From an uncultured Spirochaetaceae bacterium (GTDB lineage Bacteria > Spirochaetota > Spirochaetia > Sphaerochaetales > Sphaerochaetaceae): a stretch of DNA of 35,262 nucleotides. Made by a program: the position numbers and the translations under genes. Below, one piece after another: positions 28,851 to 35,205 of this stretch. The stretch spans positions 1 through 35,262 of the forward strand of contig CALXXR010000015.1 in the NCBI GenBank assembly GCA_944392735.1, written 5' to 3'. The notes beneath the pieces were generated by a model. It was not told the DNA's origin, did no database searches, and saw nothing but the letters and a program-made list of their open reading frames with translations. The first letter of the stretch is position 1; every line of letters starts with the position of its first letter.

Positions 28851-29417
28851 ATGAAGAAATATCTGCCGCTTATGGTATCAGGGGCCCTGATGATCTTCAT
28901 CGGGCTGTATATGCTGCTCCACCCGGATGGATTCCTGACCGTCGTCATCTCCGCCTTCGGCGTCTATCTGGCGCTGGATGGAGTGCGCACGCTCTATGCC
29001 GCCATCAAGCTTGGGGACGTCATCGGAAGGAGCTTCCGAAAGGTGGCGATGGGGAAGGCCTTCCTGAATATGCTCGTGGGCCTCTTCGTCATCATCATAG
29101 CCATCGCGGCTCCAACGCTCATACCGAATCTTCTCGTATACATCATAGCAGCGGCATTCCTCATCACGGGCGCGGTCGACCTTGCGGATATGCTGCTGCT
29201 GTCGAAGGCTGGCGTCGTCGGCACGGGACTGGGGCTCGAGACGGTGCTCTCGTTCGTCTTCGCCATACTGCTCTTCCTCTTCCCCAGCTTCCTCACCGGC
29301 ATCGTCATGACGCTCTTCGCGGCTATCCTCCTTGCGTCAGGAGCACTCATGGTATATGGCTCGATAAGCTCGATGGTCTTCAGCCGGCGGCTGCGCAAGG
29401 ACGGCGAATCGCTTTGA
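28851..29417 (+). CDS. DUF308 / HdeD-like membrane protein
   Basis: A 188-residue protein with six predicted transmembrane helices arranged as repeated pairs, as in the HdeD/DUF308 family: LMIFIGLYMLLHPDGFLTVVISAFGVYLALDGVRTL, later LLVYIIAAAFLITGAVDLADM and LLASGALMVYGSISS (named here as separate segments). The family is linked to acid resistance in enterics but its activity is unknown. The frame opens far upstream, over the HAD gene on the other strand; MKKYLPLMVSGALM at 28851 is the evident start. The last residues (SRRLRKDGESL) form a short basic cytoplasmic tail. Confidence 0.82.
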   Translation: MKKYLPLMVSGALMIFIGLYMLLHPDGFLTVVISAFGVYLALDGVRTLYAAIKLGDVIGRSFRKVAMGKAFLNMLVGLFVIIIAIAAPTLIPNLLVYIIAAAFLITGAVDLADMLLLSKAGVVGTGLGLETVLSFVFAILLFLFPSFLTGIVMTLFAAILLASGALMVYGSISSMVFSRRLRKDGESL

Positions 29418-29433: not shown

Positions 29434-29462
29434 TTGACTCCGGCCGCTGTCTGGGTTACGGT
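29434..29462 (+). promoter_or_regulatory. Promoter of the histidine operon
   Basis: TTGACT (29434-29439), 17 bp, TACGGT (29457-29462), then exactly 6 bases to the ATG of the leader peptide. The -35 is strong and the -10 weak. From 29418 to the promoter nothing else is seen. Confidence 0.55.
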
Positions 29463-29468
29463 TTCCAC

Positions 29469-29513
29469 ATGGAAAGAATGAAGGGACATCATCATTGCCT
29501 GATTCAGTCATGA
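29469..29513 (+). CDS. hisL: his operon leader peptide (His-His-His)
   Basis: A 14-residue reading frame, MERMKGHHHCLIQS, with three consecutive His codons (29487-29495) and a TGA at 29511-29513. Its position between a promoter and an intrinsic terminator in front of hisG is the classical layout for ribosome-mediated attenuation: when charged histidyl-tRNA is scarce the ribosome stalls on the CAT codons and the terminator fails to form. No Shine-Dalgarno is present, and the start codon coincides with the predicted transcription start, so the peptide may be made from a leaderless RNA. Confidence 0.8.
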   Translation: MERMKGHHHCLIQS

Positions 29514-29568
29514 CAGCGCCATGATGGGTTCGTTGCATATCGGCCTCCCAATGGCGGGAGGCTTTTTT
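29487..29568 (+). promoter_or_regulatory. Attenuator with competing RNA structures ahead of hisG
   Basis: Three overlapping pairings are visible. The pause-type pairing joins the CATCAT of the His codons with ATGATG (29521-29526). The antiterminator joins CGCCAT (29517-29522) and TGGG (29525-29528) with ATGGCG (29551-29556) and CCCA (29547-29550), ten pairs with a 2-base bulge. It excludes the terminator stem at 29543-29562. A ribosome at the stop codon (29511-29513) would cover the antiterminator's 5' arm; one stalled at the His codons would not. Confidence 0.75.
29543..29568 (+). terminator. Attenuator terminator
   Basis: GCCTCCC (29543-29549) pairs with GGGAGGC (29556-29562), loop AATGGC, followed by six T residues. 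A textbook intrinsic terminator, 23 bases before hisG. Confidence 0.92.
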
Positions 29569-29591
29569 CATCCCTTTCCGAAGGAGGCACC

Positions 29592-30452
29592 ATGGATACC
29601 AGGCTTTCGATCGCCGTGCAGAAGAGCGGCAGGCTCTCGGAGAAGAGCCTCGATCTGATACGTTCCTGCGGAATCGAATTCAATGCCGACAGCCGCGCGC
29701 TCAAGGCATCTGCAGCGGATTTCCCGCTCGATTTCCTCTTCGTTCGCGATGACGACATCCCCCAGTATGTAGCAGATGGGGTCGCCGATATCGGCATCGT
29801 AGGGCGCAACGAGCTGGATGAATCCGGCATCGAGCTTGATATCGTGAGGGATCTGCGCTTCGCGGCCTGCAGGCTTTCGATCGCTGTCCCGAACGGGTAT
29901 CCATACAGCGGGATCGGGTCGCTGGAGGGCAAGCGCATCGCCACATCCTATCCGAGGATACTCTCCACGATCCTCAAGGAGAACGGTGTCTCAGCGCAGG
30001 TCGTCGTCGTATCCGGATCGGTGGAGATCACTGTGGAGGTCGGCATCGCCGATGCGATAGCGGATCTCGTATCCACGGGGACGACGCTGAAGATGAATGG
30101 GCTGGAGGAGGCGGAGTGCATCTACCGCTCCTCAGCCGTGATGATCGCCCGCAGCGATATGGATGACGGCAAGAGGGCTGTGCTTTCTCGTCTTCTCGAG
30201 CGCATCGATGCCGTGATGAACGCAAGGCACAAGAAGTACATACTCTTCAACCTTCCGGAGGAGAAGCTTCCGCTGGCTGCCGCCGCCATCGGCGGAATGA
30301 AGAGCCCTACGGTGACTCCTCTGATGGACAAGGGCTGGCTTTCCGTACAGTCCGCCGTCGATGAGGATCGCTTCTGGTCGGTATTCGAGGAGCTCAAGAA
30401 GCTTGGAGCGGAAGGAATCCTCGTCATGAACATCGAGAAGATGACGGAGTAG
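29592..30452 (+). CDS. hisG: ATP phosphoribosyltransferase, long form
   Basis: First step of histidine synthesis: ATP plus PRPP gives phosphoribosyl-ATP. The 286-residue sequence begins LSIAVQKSGRLSEKSLDLI and contains GVADIGIVGRNEL and the PRPP-binding DLVSTGTTLKMNGL. About 70 further residues (from roughly 212, AVMNARHKKYILFNLP onward) form the regulatory C-terminal domain found in the hexameric long form, which is feedback-inhibited by histidine and does not need HisZ. AAGGAGG lies 4 bases before the ATG. It is thus controlled twice: by attenuation and by allostery. Confidence 0.96.
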   Translation: MDTRLSIAVQKSGRLSEKSLDLIRSCGIEFNADSRALKASAADFPLDFLFVRDDDIPQYVADGVADIGIVGRNELDESGIELDIVRDLRFAACRLSIAVPNGYPYSGIGSLEGKRIATSYPRILSTILKENGVSAQVVVVSGSVEITVEVGIADAIADLVSTGTTLKMNGLEEAECIYRSSAVMIARSDMDDGKRAVLSRLLERIDAVMNARHKKYILFNLPEEKLPLAAAAIGGMKSPTVTPLMDKGWLSVQSAVDEDRFWSVFEELKKLGAEGILVMNIEKMTE

Positions 30453-30455
30453 GCC

Positions 30456-31736
30456 ATGTATATTTCATTCCGCGATTACGATGCGGCGCTGCTGAAGCGC
30501 CCGGATGAGGATGATCGTTCCATCGAGATGGCGGTGGAGGGGATCATCTCCGATGTGAGGAGCCGCGGCGATGCCGCCCTCTTCGATTATGCTGAGCGCT
30601 TCGATGGCTGGAGACCCGACTCCCTCTTCGTTCCGGAGGGGGACTTCGATGAGGCGGAGAAGGCGGTTCCGGATGATCTGAAGGCCGCGATCGCGAGGGC
30701 GATGAGGAACATCAGGACCTTCCATGAAGCGCAGATGCCCAAGGGCGAGGATGTCGAGACCGAATCCGGCGTGAGGTGCTGGCGCAGGATCGTTCCGATC
30801 CGCAGCGTAGGGCTCTATGTGCCTGGAGGTACGGCACCGCTTTTCTCGACGGTGCTGATGCTCGCCGTTCCCGCTTCGGTCGCAGGATGCCAGAGCATCA
30901 CCCTCGCCACTCCAGCAAGGAACGGAAGGATCGCTCCAGCCATCCTCTATGCATCGAGGCTGGCTGGTGTCGACAAGATCCTCAGGGTTGGCGGCGCGCA
31001 GGCGATAGCCGCATTCGCATATGGCACCGAGAGCGTTCCCAGGTGCGACAGGATCTTCGGACCCGGCAGCAGATACGTCACGGAAGCGAAGAGGCAGGTG
31101 TCGTCCGTCACCTCTATCGATATGCTTGCAGGACCGTCGGAGGTGATGGTCGCTATAGACGGCACCTCCGATCCGCGGTTCGCCGCTGCCGATCTTCTGT
31201 CGCAGGCGGAGCATGGCAGGGACAGCCAGGCGATGCTCCTTGTCAGGGCGGAGAGCCGGAAGGAGGCGGAGAGCATCGCTTCAGCCGTGGAGGCCGCGAT
31301 CGGCGAGGAGCTTTCAAGGATAGGGCGCCATGAGTTCATGCTGCCATCGCTATCCCATTCATACGCATTCCCGATGTACTCGGATGAGGATCTGGTGGAT
31401 GCGATCAACGCATATGCGCCGGAGCATCTCATCATCTCCACGGAAGATCCTGAGAGGATCCTCGCAGGCGTCGAGAATGCCGGATCGGTCTTCCTGGGCC
31501 AGTATACGCCTGAATCCGCAGGAGACTATGCCTCTGGAACCAACCATACGCTTCCGACATCGGGGTGGGCACGCTCCTCCTCAGGCGTATCTCTCGATTC
31601 CTTCCTGAAGAAGATCACCGTGCAGCGGATCACGCGTGAAGGCCTCGAGTCGCTGGGACCGACGATCGAGGCGCTTGCGGAGGCTGAGGGGCTCGAGGCG
31701 CATAGCTATGCGGTGAAGATGAGGAGGATGCCATGA
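30456..31736 (+). CDS. hisD: Histidinol dehydrogenase
   Basis: Catalyses the last two oxidations, histidinol to histidine, with NAD and zinc. The 426 residues contain GLYVPGGTAPLFSTVLML, VGGAQAIAAFAYGTESV, the GPGSRYVTEAKR nucleotide region, LLSQAEHG with a zinc His, AYAPEHLII with the catalytic Glu-His pair, GDYASGTNHTLPT with zinc Asp and LEAHSYAV with another zinc His. All expected ligands are present and the length is normal. It starts 3 bases after the hisG stop and overlaps hisC by 4 bases. Confidence 0.97.
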   Translation: MYISFRDYDAALLKRPDEDDRSIEMAVEGIISDVRSRGDAALFDYAERFDGWRPDSLFVPEGDFDEAEKAVPDDLKAAIARAMRNIRTFHEAQMPKGEDVETESGVRCWRRIVPIRSVGLYVPGGTAPLFSTVLMLAVPASVAGCQSITLATPARNGRIAPAILYASRLAGVDKILRVGGAQAIAAFAYGTESVPRCDRIFGPGSRYVTEAKRQVSSVTSIDMLAGPSEVMVAIDGTSDPRFAAADLLSQAEHGRDSQAMLLVRAESRKEAESIASAVEAAIGEELSRIGRHEFMLPSLSHSYAFPMYSDEDLVDAINAYAPEHLIISTEDPERILAGVENAGSVFLGQYTPESAGDYASGTNHTLPTSGWARSSSGVSLDSFLKKITVQRITREGLESLGPTIEALAEAEGLEAHSYAVKMRRMP

Positions 31737-32776
31737 TCGAAGAGCTTCTCAATCCATGGATCCGCGATCTCGTTCCATACAGCTCTGCGCGCAGCGAGTT
31801 CTCGGGCAGAGCCGACATACTCCTCGATGCCAATGAGAGCTGGGAGGGCGGCAACGACGGCGTCAACAGATACCCGGATCCAACCGCCTCAGCGCTCCGC
31901 TTGGCGATCGAGCGGGAGATGGGGCTTCCGTATGGGATGACCGCCATAGGGAATGGATCGGATGAGGTCATCGATCTGCTTATACGCATGTTCTGCGCTC
32001 CGGGGCGCGATTCGATCATGATCGAGCGTCCGACCTATGGCACGTACTCCGTCTTCGCGCGCACCTCGGACATCTCTGTGATCGATGTGCCGCTGACGCC
32101 ATCGCTGGAGCTGGACACAGGGGCCATGCTGGATGCAATCGCCGTCCACAGACCCAAGATCGTATTCATCTGCTCTCCGAACAACCCTACAGGGCGCGTC
32201 TATCCGCTGGAGGATATCCTCCGCATAGCCAAGTCCAATGAAGGTATCACGGTCGTAGATGAAGCCTATGCCGATTTCTCGCCGGATTTCAGGTCTACGG
32301 TTCCTTCGATCGCGGATAACCCGAGGATCGTGGTCCTCAGAACGTTCTCCAAGGCATATGGGATCGCTGGGGCGAGGCTCGGCATACTCGTTGCTTCGCC
32401 TGATGTGCAGAGGACGTTCATGAAGGTCAAGCCGCCATACAATGTCTCCTCGCTGGCGGAGAAGGCTGGGCTGGAGGCACTTTCCGATATGGCGAGGGTG
32501 CGGTCGAGGATCGCCGAAACGATCTCCCGCAGGGAGGAATTCTCCTCATACCTTGGCAAGCTGCCATTCGTGAGGGAGGTGCTGCCATCCGAGGCGAACT
32601 TCGTGCTTGCCAGGGTCGATGATGCCTCAGCCCTCTATGATCATCTCATATCGAATGGCATCGTCATCCGCAACCGCTCCTCAGAGCCGATGCTTGCTAA
32701 GGCGCTCCGCATAACGATAGGATCGGAGGAGGAGATGGATCGTCTGAAGGAGGTGTTTGATGGCTGGAGAGGATAG
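31733..32776 (+). CDS. hisC: Histidinol-phosphate aminotransferase
   Basis: PLP-dependent transamination of imidazole-acetol phosphate to histidinol phosphate. The 347-residue fold-type I enzyme shows LDANESWEGG at the N-terminus, IERPTYGTYSVFA, SPNNPTGRVYP (149-158), VVDEAYADF with the PLP-binding Asp176, and RTFSKAYGIAGARLG, in which Lys207 forms the internal aldimine. The start overlaps the hisD stop (ATGA), and its 3' end overlaps hisB by 17 bases. Confidence 0.96.
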   Translation: MIEELLNPWIRDLVPYSSARSEFSGRADILLDANESWEGGNDGVNRYPDPTASALRLAIEREMGLPYGMTAIGNGSDEVIDLLIRMFCAPGRDSIMIERPTYGTYSVFARTSDISVIDVPLTPSLELDTGAMLDAIAVHRPKIVFICSPNNPTGRVYPLEDILRIAKSNEGITVVDEAYADFSPDFRSTVPSIADNPRIVVLRTFSKAYGIAGARLGILVASPDVQRTFMKVKPPYNVSSLAEKAGLEALSDMARVRSRIAETISRREEFSSYLGKLPFVREVLPSEANFVLARVDDASALYDHLISNGIVIRNRSSEPMLAKALRITIGSEEEMDRLKEVFDGWRG

Positions 32777-33896
32777 GAGGAAGGTCCTTTTCATAGATCG
32801 CGATGGCGTGATAGTGAAGGAGAGGCAGGTGGATAGCTATGAGGCCATCGAGTACATCCCCCATGTCTTCGAGGCGCTGAGGGAGATATCGAGGCGCACG
32901 GACTACCTTCTGGTGATGGTGTCCAACCAGGATGGCGTGGGGAGCACGGCATTCACGTACGAAGGCTTTGCAGGTCCTGCCGAGCGCATATTCTCGACGC
33001 TCAGGGGAGAGGGGATCGTCTTCGATGAGATCAACATAGACCTCTCCCTTCCGGAGGATGGGCTCCCGACCAGGAAGCCTGGGACTGGGATGATAGACCG
33101 CTACCGCAGCGATCGCTATGACATGGCCGCCTCGTTCGTCATCGGCGACCGTGTTACGGATATGATGCTCGCCTCCTCGATGGGTTGCCGGGGATTCCTG
33201 CTGAACGATGATGGCATCGAGGTGCCTCCCGAGCTTGAGGGCATCATAGCGCTTCGGACCGGAAGCTGGCTTGATGTGGCTGCATACCTTGTCGATGACG
33301 GCACGCTGCGGCATAGGACGGCCTCCGTCAGGAGGACAACGAAGGAGACGGATATATCGCTGTCGATCGATCTCGATGGCACCGGCGAGGGGAGGATAGC
33401 CACAGGCATCGGCTTCTTCGACCATATGCTGGATCAGGTGGTCAGGCACTCCCGCATGGACGCGCAGGGCTCGGTCTCCGGCGATCTGCAGGTCGATGAG
33501 CACCACAGCGTGGAGGATGCCGCGCTGGTCCTTGGAGAGGCTGTGAGGAAGGCGCTGGGCGACAAGAGGGGGATCGAGCGCTATGGATACGAGATCGTGA
33601 TGATGGATGATGCGGTGGCGACCGCGGCGATCGACTTCTCGGGCAGGCCTGATCTGATCTGGGATGCTGAGTTCTCCTATGCCTACATAGGGGGATTCCC
33701 GACCGAGCTCATCGTCCATTTCTTCCGCTCGTTCTCGGCATCTGCGGGATGCAACCTCTATATCTCGGCGACGAAGGGCGGCAACAGCCATCATACAGCG
33801 GAGGCCATCTTCAAGGCATTCGCCCGTGCCATGCGCAAGGCCGTAAGGCGCATCCCCGGAGATGCGCGCGTGTCCAGCACGAAGGGAGTGCTATGA
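32760..33896 (+). CDS. hisB: Bifunctional histidinol-phosphatase / imidazoleglycerol-phosphate dehydratase
   Basis: A fusion of two pathway steps. Residues 1-165 are a HAD histidinol-phosphatase (FIDRDGV with Asp13 and Asp15; VMVSNQDGVGS; VIGDRVTDMMLA), and 185-378 the dehydratase (FFDHMLDQ 219-226, DEHHSVEDAAL, GGNSHHTAEAIFKAFARA). In the E. coli enzyme the phosphatase has a zinc loop (ICPHLPADECDCRKP); here it reads INIDLSLPEDGLPTRKP, with all four ligands replaced, as I recall for Bacteroidota HisB. A TTG one codon earlier is possible, but AAGGAGG with 6-base spacing points to the ATG at 32760. Confidence 0.96.
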   Translation: MAGEDRRKVLFIDRDGVIVKERQVDSYEAIEYIPHVFEALREISRRTDYLLVMVSNQDGVGSTAFTYEGFAGPAERIFSTLRGEGIVFDEINIDLSLPEDGLPTRKPGTGMIDRYRSDRYDMAASFVIGDRVTDMMLASSMGCRGFLLNDDGIEVPPELEGIIALRTGSWLDVAAYLVDDGTLRHRTASVRRTTKETDISLSIDLDGTGEGRIATGIGFFDHMLDQVVRHSRMDAQGSVSGDLQVDEHHSVEDAALVLGEAVRKALGDKRGIERYGYEIVMMDDAVATAAIDFSGRPDLIWDAEFSYAYIGGFPTELIVHFFRSFSASAGCNLYISATKGGNSHHTAEAIFKAFARAMRKAVRRIPGDARVSSTKGVL

Positions 33897-34483
33897 TCGC
33901 GGTGATAAAGTACAGCGCAGGCAATGTCCTGTCGGTGATGAATGCCCTTTCCCGGCTCGGGGCGGAGGCGATCCTGACCGATGATGTCGATGCGATAAGG
34001 AGCGCAGACAAGGTCATCTTCCCCGGCGTCGGCGAGGCCTCCTCAGCTATGCGCTATCTCGATGAGCATGGGCTTTCGGATGCCATCAGATCGCTGAAGC
34101 AGCCGTTCCTTGGCATCTGCCTGGGCATGCAGCTTATGTGCACCTCCTCCGAGGAGGGGGATGTCGAATGCCTTGGTCTCTTCCCCGATCGCATTCAGCA
34201 GTTCCCCAGGGGACGTGGATACAAGGTTCCCCATGTGGGCTGGAATACGATACGGGATCTCTCGGGGCCTCTCTACAGGAGGACGGAGGAGGGGGAGTAC
34301 GTCTATTTCGTCCATTCGTACTACGCGCCGCTGTCGCAGTACTCGTCAGCCGTCTGCGAGTATGGCGGGATAGCCTTCTCGGCCTCGCTGTCCAAGGATA
34401 ACTTCCATGGAATGCAGTTCCATCCCGAGAAGAGCGGCGAGGCCGGCGAGCGCATGCTGCGCTGCTTTCTGGAGGAAGCATGA
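33893..34483 (+). CDS. hisH: Imidazole glycerol phosphate synthase, glutaminase subunit
   Basis: Supplies ammonia to HisF. The 196-residue class I amidotransferase begins MIAVIKYSAGNVLSVMNAL; catalytic Cys76 is in LGICLGMQ, and the His-Glu pair in MQFHPEKSGEAG. VIFPGVGEASSAM is the oxyanion-side loop, and RGRGYKVPHVGWN the interface with HisF. The frame opens 48 codons further upstream inside hisB, but the ATGA overlap with the hisB stop and the family start fix 33893. Confidence 0.95.
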   Translation: MIAVIKYSAGNVLSVMNALSRLGAEAILTDDVDAIRSADKVIFPGVGEASSAMRYLDEHGLSDAIRSLKQPFLGICLGMQLMCTSSEEGDVECLGLFPDRIQQFPRGRGYKVPHVGWNTIRDLSGPLYRRTEEGEYVYFVHSYYAPLSQYSSAVCEYGGIAFSASLSKDNFHGMQFHPEKSGEAGERMLRCFLEEA

Positions 34484-35205
34484 GGGTGATACCTGCCATC
34501 GATCTGGTCGATGGGCGGCCTGTGAGGCTTGCCGAAGGCGACAGCTCGAGAATGACGTCATATGGCCTCTCTGCCCTCGATGCCGCGAAGCGCTTCGAGG
34601 ATGGCGGCCTCGGATATCTCCATCTGGTGGATCTCGATGCCGCATTCGGAAGGGGCAGCAACCTCGATGTCCTGGAGGAGATTGCATCGAAGACCAGCCT
34701 CCATATCGATTTCGGGGGCGGTGTGAGGACGCCAGCCTCATTCCTTTCCGCCCTCGATGCAGGAGCTGCCGAGGTGAACATAGGATCGATGGCTGCCAAG
34801 GATCCTGACGCGGTCAAGGCTCTGGCGGCAAAATTCCCCTCAAGGGTGATCCTCTCCGCCGATGCACGCGATGGCAGGATCGCGGTCTCGGGCTGGACGG
34901 AGGATACCGGAGCCGATGCCGTATCGTTCATCGGGGATTTCCTTGCATCCGGCATAGGGAAGGCTGTCGTCACGGACATCTCACGCGATGGCATGCTCTC
35001 AGGACCTTCGCTTGAGCTGTATCGCACGATCCTCGAAAAGCTACCAGGACTGTCCCTGATAGCATCCGGCGGGGTGTCGTCGCTCGATGATCTCAAGGCG
35101 TTGGCTGGAATCGGATGCAGCGGCGCGATAGTGGGTAAGGCGTACTATGAAGGCCGCGTCTCCATAGAGGAGATGAAGGAGGCGGAATGCTGGCGAAGAG
35201 GATAA
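34480..35205 (+). CDS. hisA: ProFAR isomerase (phosphoribosylformimino-AICAR ribotide isomerase)
   Basis: Amadori rearrangement of ProFAR to PRFAR in a TIM barrel of 241 residues. It shows [17 protein letters not shown] with catalytic Asp8, [58 protein letters not shown] with the second catalytic Asp, and [15 protein letters not shown] as the phosphate-binding strand. The start overlaps the hisH stop (ATGA), and its end overlaps hisF by 19 bases. Confidence 0.96.

Follow-up and report, generated by a model that had tools for sequence, protein, structure and literature searches.

A predicted leaderless histidine attenuator upstream of hisG in the Sphaerochaetaceae and other Spirochaetia

The his operon of an uncultured Spirochaetaceae bacterium is very probably controlled by a ribosome-mediated transcription attenuator, with an RNA that would start at the AUG of its own leader peptide. 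The element lies in the window (the whole stretch of DNA analysed, 35,262 nt of contig CALXXR010000015.1) between a DUF308 gene, which ends at 29417, and hisG, which starts at 29592. It combines a leader ORF with tandem His codons, a terminator before the first structural gene, a maintained antiterminator that excludes this terminator, and a pause hairpin that includes the control codons. Attenuation by a tandem-His leader peptide is the textbook mechanism of E. coli and is classical in Gammaproteobacteria. How is the spirochaete version built? Where does its RNA begin? How widely, and for how long, has it been present in the class? The features on which the answers rest are these:

-35 element: 29434-29439, + strand, TTGACT (sequence, and TTGAC spacing conserved in relatives)
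-10 element: 29457-29462, + strand, TACGGT (consensus of relatives TAnnGT, or TAnnnT, at -12 to -7 from the leader ATG)
Leader ORF: 29469-29513, + strand, MERMKGHHHCLIQS, 14 codons, stop TGA at 29511-29513; predicted leaderless
Tandem His control codons: 29487-29495, + strand, CAT CAT CAT (sequence; relatives have 2-5 His codons in the same place)
1:2 pause/protector hairpin: 29484-29487 and 29489-29495 with 29521-29531, + strand (fold; partner-swap test)
2:3 antiterminator, 10 pairs: 29517-29522 and 29525-29528 with 29547-29556, + strand (duplex and partner-swap tests)
3:4 intrinsic terminator: 29542-29568, + strand, stem 29542-29549/29556-29563, loop AATGGC, T6 tail 29563-29568 (terminator scan; partner-swap test)
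Shine-Dalgarno (SD) sequence of hisG: 29581-29587, + strand, AAGGAGG (sequence)
hisG, long form (HisG + HisG_C), first controlled gene: 29592-30452, + strand (Pfam PF01634, PF08029)
hisD: 30456-31736, + strand (PF00815)
hisC: 31733-32776, + strand (PF00155; tblastn order)
hisB, fused phosphatase-dehydratase (HAD + IGPD): 32757-33896, + strand (PF00475 and HAD-type matches)
hisH: 33893-34483, + strand (tblastn to E. coli HisH, 42%)
hisA: 34480-35205, + strand (PF00977; tblastn)
hisF: begins at ~35187, + strand, cut by the window end (tblastn)

Promoter, leader peptide and predicted start of the RNA

A preliminary description of this DNA had claimed a promoter and a 14-codon frame with three consecutive CAT codons, and both are there. 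On both strands of the 35 kb window, the only ATG ORFs of 8-35 codons that encode HHH are the leader itself and the shorter frame from an in-frame start inside it. The ORF makes up nearly half of a leader RNA of ~100 nt, and an alignment of relatives has the His codons as the conserved core of the leader. The promoter, with 17 nt between TTGACT and TACGGT, is weak as a single sequence: the -10 element matches the consensus at 3/6 positions and a consensus promoter scan of the window returns 0 sites. It is convincing only by its conservation, as 85 of 95 spirochaete leaders have a TTGAC that starts 35-38 nt 5' of their ATG. In the -10 columns of 86 leaders, T occurs 72 times at -12, A 74 times at -11 and T 74 times at -7, and a C or T stands immediately 5' of the ATG in 79/86. 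These coordinates, counted from the ATG, are those that a promoter has relative to +1, and so the A of the ATG is the predicted +1. The leader ORF thus appears to be leaderless, with a pyrimidine at -1, a coincidence of transcription and translation starts that the preliminary description did not include. Anti-SD energy before the leader ATGs averages -2.1 kcal/mol vs -10.8 for hisG; by this measure no SD precedes the TTGAC-spaced leader ATGs, the window's included, and all 44 hisG genes tested (44/44) have a strong one, below -5 kcal/mol.

Is this arrangement peculiar to the leader? Across 11 genomes of the genus (the window's and ten congeners) the leaderless promoter-ATG spacing gives 192 matches, vs 57 for a spacer 7 nt longer and 34 for the reversed pattern; the window's own genome has 20, vs 3 with the longer spacer and 0 reversed. 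Similar sites recur between species of the genus. Leaderless genes may, judging from these patterns, be common in it, and in another spirochaete, Leptospira, leaderless mRNAs number in the hundreds (PMC5243855).

Exclusive pairings and the proposed mechanism

Strand 2 is common to 1:2 and 2:3, strand 3 to 2:3 and 3:4, and the three pairings are mutually exclusive. The 1:2 hairpin, which was absent from the preliminary description, takes in the His control codons in silico. The terminator with six T residues reported there is recovered by the scan; its stem has 8 pairs, 6 of them GC, in the layout GGCCTCCC-AATGGC-GGGAGGCT-TTTTT. The antiterminator has ten pairs as stated, and its partner had been given as the loop and 3' arm of the terminator; the partner is in fact 29547-29556, which takes in the loop, the 3' half of the terminator's 5' arm and no more than one base, the first, of its 3' arm.

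Comparison of sequences leads us to infer where transcription starts, that translation is leaderless, that the ribosome stalls and that histidine is the signal; these would work together as follows. RNA polymerase would start at 29469, making the leader AUG the 5' end of the RNA, and a ribosome would load on this AUG and translate toward the three His codons. When histidyl-tRNA is short, the ribosome would stall on the His codons and cover strand 1, so that 2:3 would pair ahead of the synthesis of strand 4; with the terminator blocked, hisGDCBHAF.. would be transcribed. When His-tRNA is plentiful, the ribosome would reach the stop codon and cover the 5' half of strand 2, so that the terminator would form and the transcript end near 29568. 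With no translation, 1:2 would form and again the terminator. If this is true, induction of a leader reporter by histidine limitation would vanish on changing CATCATCAT to CTGCTGCTG.

For the window's leader RNA, made up to the terminator loop, the fold energy is -15.8 kcal/mol (2:3) when a ribosome sits on the first His codon and -7.1 when it sits on the stop codon. Across species, the 2:3 region gives -12 to -20 kcal/mol under the same stall and, in most species, about -1 to -10 once the ribosome is at the stop. At equilibrium, however, the terminator wins despite the stalled ribosome (P = 0.97 in the window), its probability with a stalled ribosome falling below 0.5 in only 8/46 species. 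Antitermination must therefore be kinetic, that is co-transcriptional. Co-transcriptional switching is usual for attenuators.

The strong evidence for the structures is comparative and not single-sequence. Folding of the window's leader as a single sequence is only modestly better than chance (z = -2.23), and its antiterminator duplex reaches p = 0.07 against dinucleotide shuffles; the duplex goes beyond such shuffles (p < 0.05) in 25/46 species. An energy-difference shuffle test of the antiterminator gave a weak result and is confounded, as it subtracts the fold of the very segment that is shuffled; the duplex and partner-swap tests replaced it. Formal covariation counting on alignment A2 was set aside since the terminator register shifts between subclades, and such register problems are why we chose the partner-swap test, in which strands are exchanged between species with leaders <70% similar to each other. 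For the antiterminator of 10 divergent leaders, own partners give -13.75 kcal/mol vs -10.67 when swapped, with 8/20000 permutations as good. For the terminator of divergent leaders the values are -13.26 vs -8.04 (0/20000), and for the 1:2 stem of 9 divergent leaders -13.6 vs -11.1 (10/20000). The antiterminator, terminator and 1:2 pairings co-evolve, same-species partners pairing better. The strands themselves differ in sequence among clades while the pairing logic is kept, as in GCCATGATGGG/CCCAATGGC, CCAGACGAGG/CCTTTCTGG and GAAGTGCGAA/CCGCATTTC.

Are there other ways to read the locus? The attenuator could work as proposed while its leader ORF is translated from a conventional transcript that carries an SD and begins at some site 5' of the proposed one, or that reads through from the DUF308 gene. 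SD-driven versions do exist. TTGAC is absent from 9 of the 95 leaders, and 6 of these 9, one in each of six species of the sister genus g35 (L199, L204, L205, L207, L211, L213), have an AGGAG-type SD (-6.4 to -9.8 kcal/mol) and lack the -35 TTGAC; here the leader peptide seems to have switched in evolution from a leaderless to an SD-initiated start. The failure of the consensus scan to find a strong promoter in the window also fits an upstream start. Yet the fixed distance from TTGAC to the ATG, the TAnnGT at -12 to -7, the pyrimidine that fills -1 and the poor anti-SD energies before TTGAC-spaced ATGs are at odds with it, and we regard this version as unlikely.

Much less probable still is a plain intrinsic terminator, whether constitutive or belonging to the upstream gene, standing by chance behind a His-rich ORF and regulating nothing. 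That the strong terminator forms in every state at equilibrium would suit this reading, which is nevertheless very hard to reconcile with a His-rich ORF, antiterminator and 1:2 pairing that relatives keep and that have changed in step with the terminator loop, with a promoter placed between the upstream gene and the leader ORF, and with one such attenuator site per genome. Nor is a T-box, riboswitch or protein-binding leader in place of the leader peptide at all probable; his operons of other bacteria are under T-boxes or HisR (PMC9413887), but no Rfam family reaches its gathering score in the leader region, and a leader this short, nearly half of it ORF and with His codons at its conserved core, argues against one.

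Conservation within the genus and across the class

Reading the locus as a his attenuator had come with the suggestion to look in related genomes for the His codons and the antiterminator pairing; both are kept in relatives, and the reading is borne out by the co-evolution of the pairings across divergent species and by the congeners. HisG was sought in 80 relatives, mostly metagenome-assembled genomes, the window's own assembly being fragmented (1.83 Mb). Among 48 congeners, the window's genome included, 41 have a long HisG, 5 a short one and 2 none, and in 39 of the 41 with long HisG a terminator follows a His-rich leader ORF. When a covariance model was trained on these 39 leaders, it matched each of the 39 genomes exactly once, always before hisG, and none of the other 9 congeners. 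The two exceptions with long HisG (G017 and G024) keep the his operon, lack the leader ORF and form one clade in the HisG tree, which is consistent with a single loss of the attenuator. Upstream of hisG both have a conserved stretch in the attenuator's place, TGCTAGAGATTAGAATCCT (loci L028 and L024, respectively), possibly a new promoter. The five congeners with short HisG (an open frame of ~213-255 aa; G005, G013, G021, G031 and G040, loci L055, L052, L050, L063 and L049) have no leader, and their hisG start adjoins upstream coding sequence; in them the start of the his operon is replaced within the genus. A second His-leader-like site in the window's genome, a single pattern match that recurs in congeners, is apparently coding, and the covariance model has no match in that genome apart from the one at hisG. 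A Trp analogue (TGGTGG) has no match in the window's genome, and matches elsewhere in the genus look coding.

Outside the genus the leaders are equivalent, with motifs such as HHHH, HIHHH and HHHHHH, and within Sphaerochaetaceae they precede hisG in 41/41 sampled genomes of other genera. Sphaerochaeta sp. S2 shares its exact leader peptide with several members of genus g39 in the family, one of which also has a nearly identical HisG. Two leaders, L090 and L091, have a His-rich ORF with no clear terminator by scan, which may mean a different read-out or a failure of the scan. HisG_C is present in 179/395 Spirochaetia genomes, and His leaders occur in at least six families beyond Sphaerochaetaceae: f17 (2/2 sampled), f42 (4/5), f24 (4/20), and also f3, f4 and f5. 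The sampled upstream regions of f9, f28, f29, f30, f32, f35 and f37 contain no leaders. Counts for f24 and f42, like those for Bacteroidota below, come from a His-rich ORF search with terminators checked in part: of the eight f24/f42 leaders six have terminators by scan, a seventh has a hairpin-like stretch and T-run by eye, and the eighth has no resolved terminator. L254-L257 (f24) and L263-L266 (f42) look like complete His attenuators, with leaderless spacing too. The HisG that follows the f24 and f42 leaders is only distantly related to the window's in the HisG tree, and hence the regulator and the first gene have separate histories.

Taken over these families, the attenuator system is class-wide in Spirochaetia and old. 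We lean towards the broader reading that histidine biosynthesis throughout the class is under a leaderless attenuator whose sensing ribosome has to load on a 5'-terminal AUG, a regulator with a history of its own that would stand before two very different HisG types and would have moved, within a single genus, between a leaderless and an SD start.

Known his leaders and the Bacteroidota

The attenuator of E. coli and Salmonella (hisL, Rfam RF00514) likewise has a tandem-His ORF, alternative hairpins and a terminator directly before hisGDCBHAFI, and the window's operon, hisGDC(NB)HA(F..), has the gene order and fused hisB of E. coli. The spirochaete leader differs in its length (~100 nt), in having 2-5 His codons and in the lack of an SD before the leader ORF, and RF00514 (His_leader) has no match in the window, its genome or any spirochaete leader tested (E. 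coli control, 131.6 bits). Firmicutes His-leader attenuators (Bacillus hisS*/hisZ, PMC2965389; Peptostreptococcaceae and Erysipelotrichales, PMC9413887) follow the same logic and were also found by comparative genomics outside Proteobacteria, in another phylum and with other sequences; both papers leave spirochaetes and Bacteroidota unmentioned. A leaderless leader peptide has a precedent in the trpL attenuator of Sinorhizobium meliloti (rnTrpL), where the RNA 5' end is the ATG of trpL (PMC7298713), although the amino acid is tryptophan and the host an alphaproteobacterium.

What is new here? In the literature that we found, amino-acid attenuation is described in Proteobacteria, Actinobacteria and Firmicutes. 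The preliminary description had proposed a system new in spirochaetes or one that moved in with the operon. On the first count, no report of an attenuator in spirochaetes or Sphaerochaeta was found in a searched literature that lacks many subscription papers. On the second, the system is no novelty of one genome, and a recent import is unsupported, as the attenuator is class-wide in Spirochaetia and the family's HisG is one clade. By sequence comparison it is a probable new phylum-level addition to known ribosome-mediated his attenuation, outside RF00514. It extends classical attenuation to a further phylum in a few hundred testable bases. The predicted leaderless start, placed with near-base-pair precision across families that span the class, would offer a clean system for coupling between 70S ribosomes on leaderless mRNA and RNA polymerase, with the lineage that swapped in an SD start as a natural control.

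The his operons of Bacteroidota are a lead in their own right. The nearest non-spirochaete HisG proteins are from this phylum, and the HisG tree (a quick one of uncertain root, rooted on the distant HisG type) has the window's family as one clade and the Spirochaetia families f1, f3, f4 and f17 apart from Bacteroidota and E. coli; recent horizontal transfer from Bacteroidota is unsupported by it. Deep exchange of a compact his operon with its leader among Spirochaetota, Bacteroidota and Gammaproteobacteria is possible. A His-rich short ORF precedes hisG in 62/69 Bacteroidota loci (L094-L162), which have the same operon type, their first his genes being in the window's order; their promoters are of Bacteroidota type and their leader peptides unlike the spirochaete ones. 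No Rfam family covers the four Bacteroidota leaders tested, and Flavobacteriaceae are reported to have a structured element 5' of hisG that likewise matches no Rfam family (PMC9723704). Leaders of Bacteroidota hisGDCB operons run up to HHHHHHH, with TAnnTTTG lying 14-17 nt (near-leaderless, in one group) or ~26 nt before the ATG.
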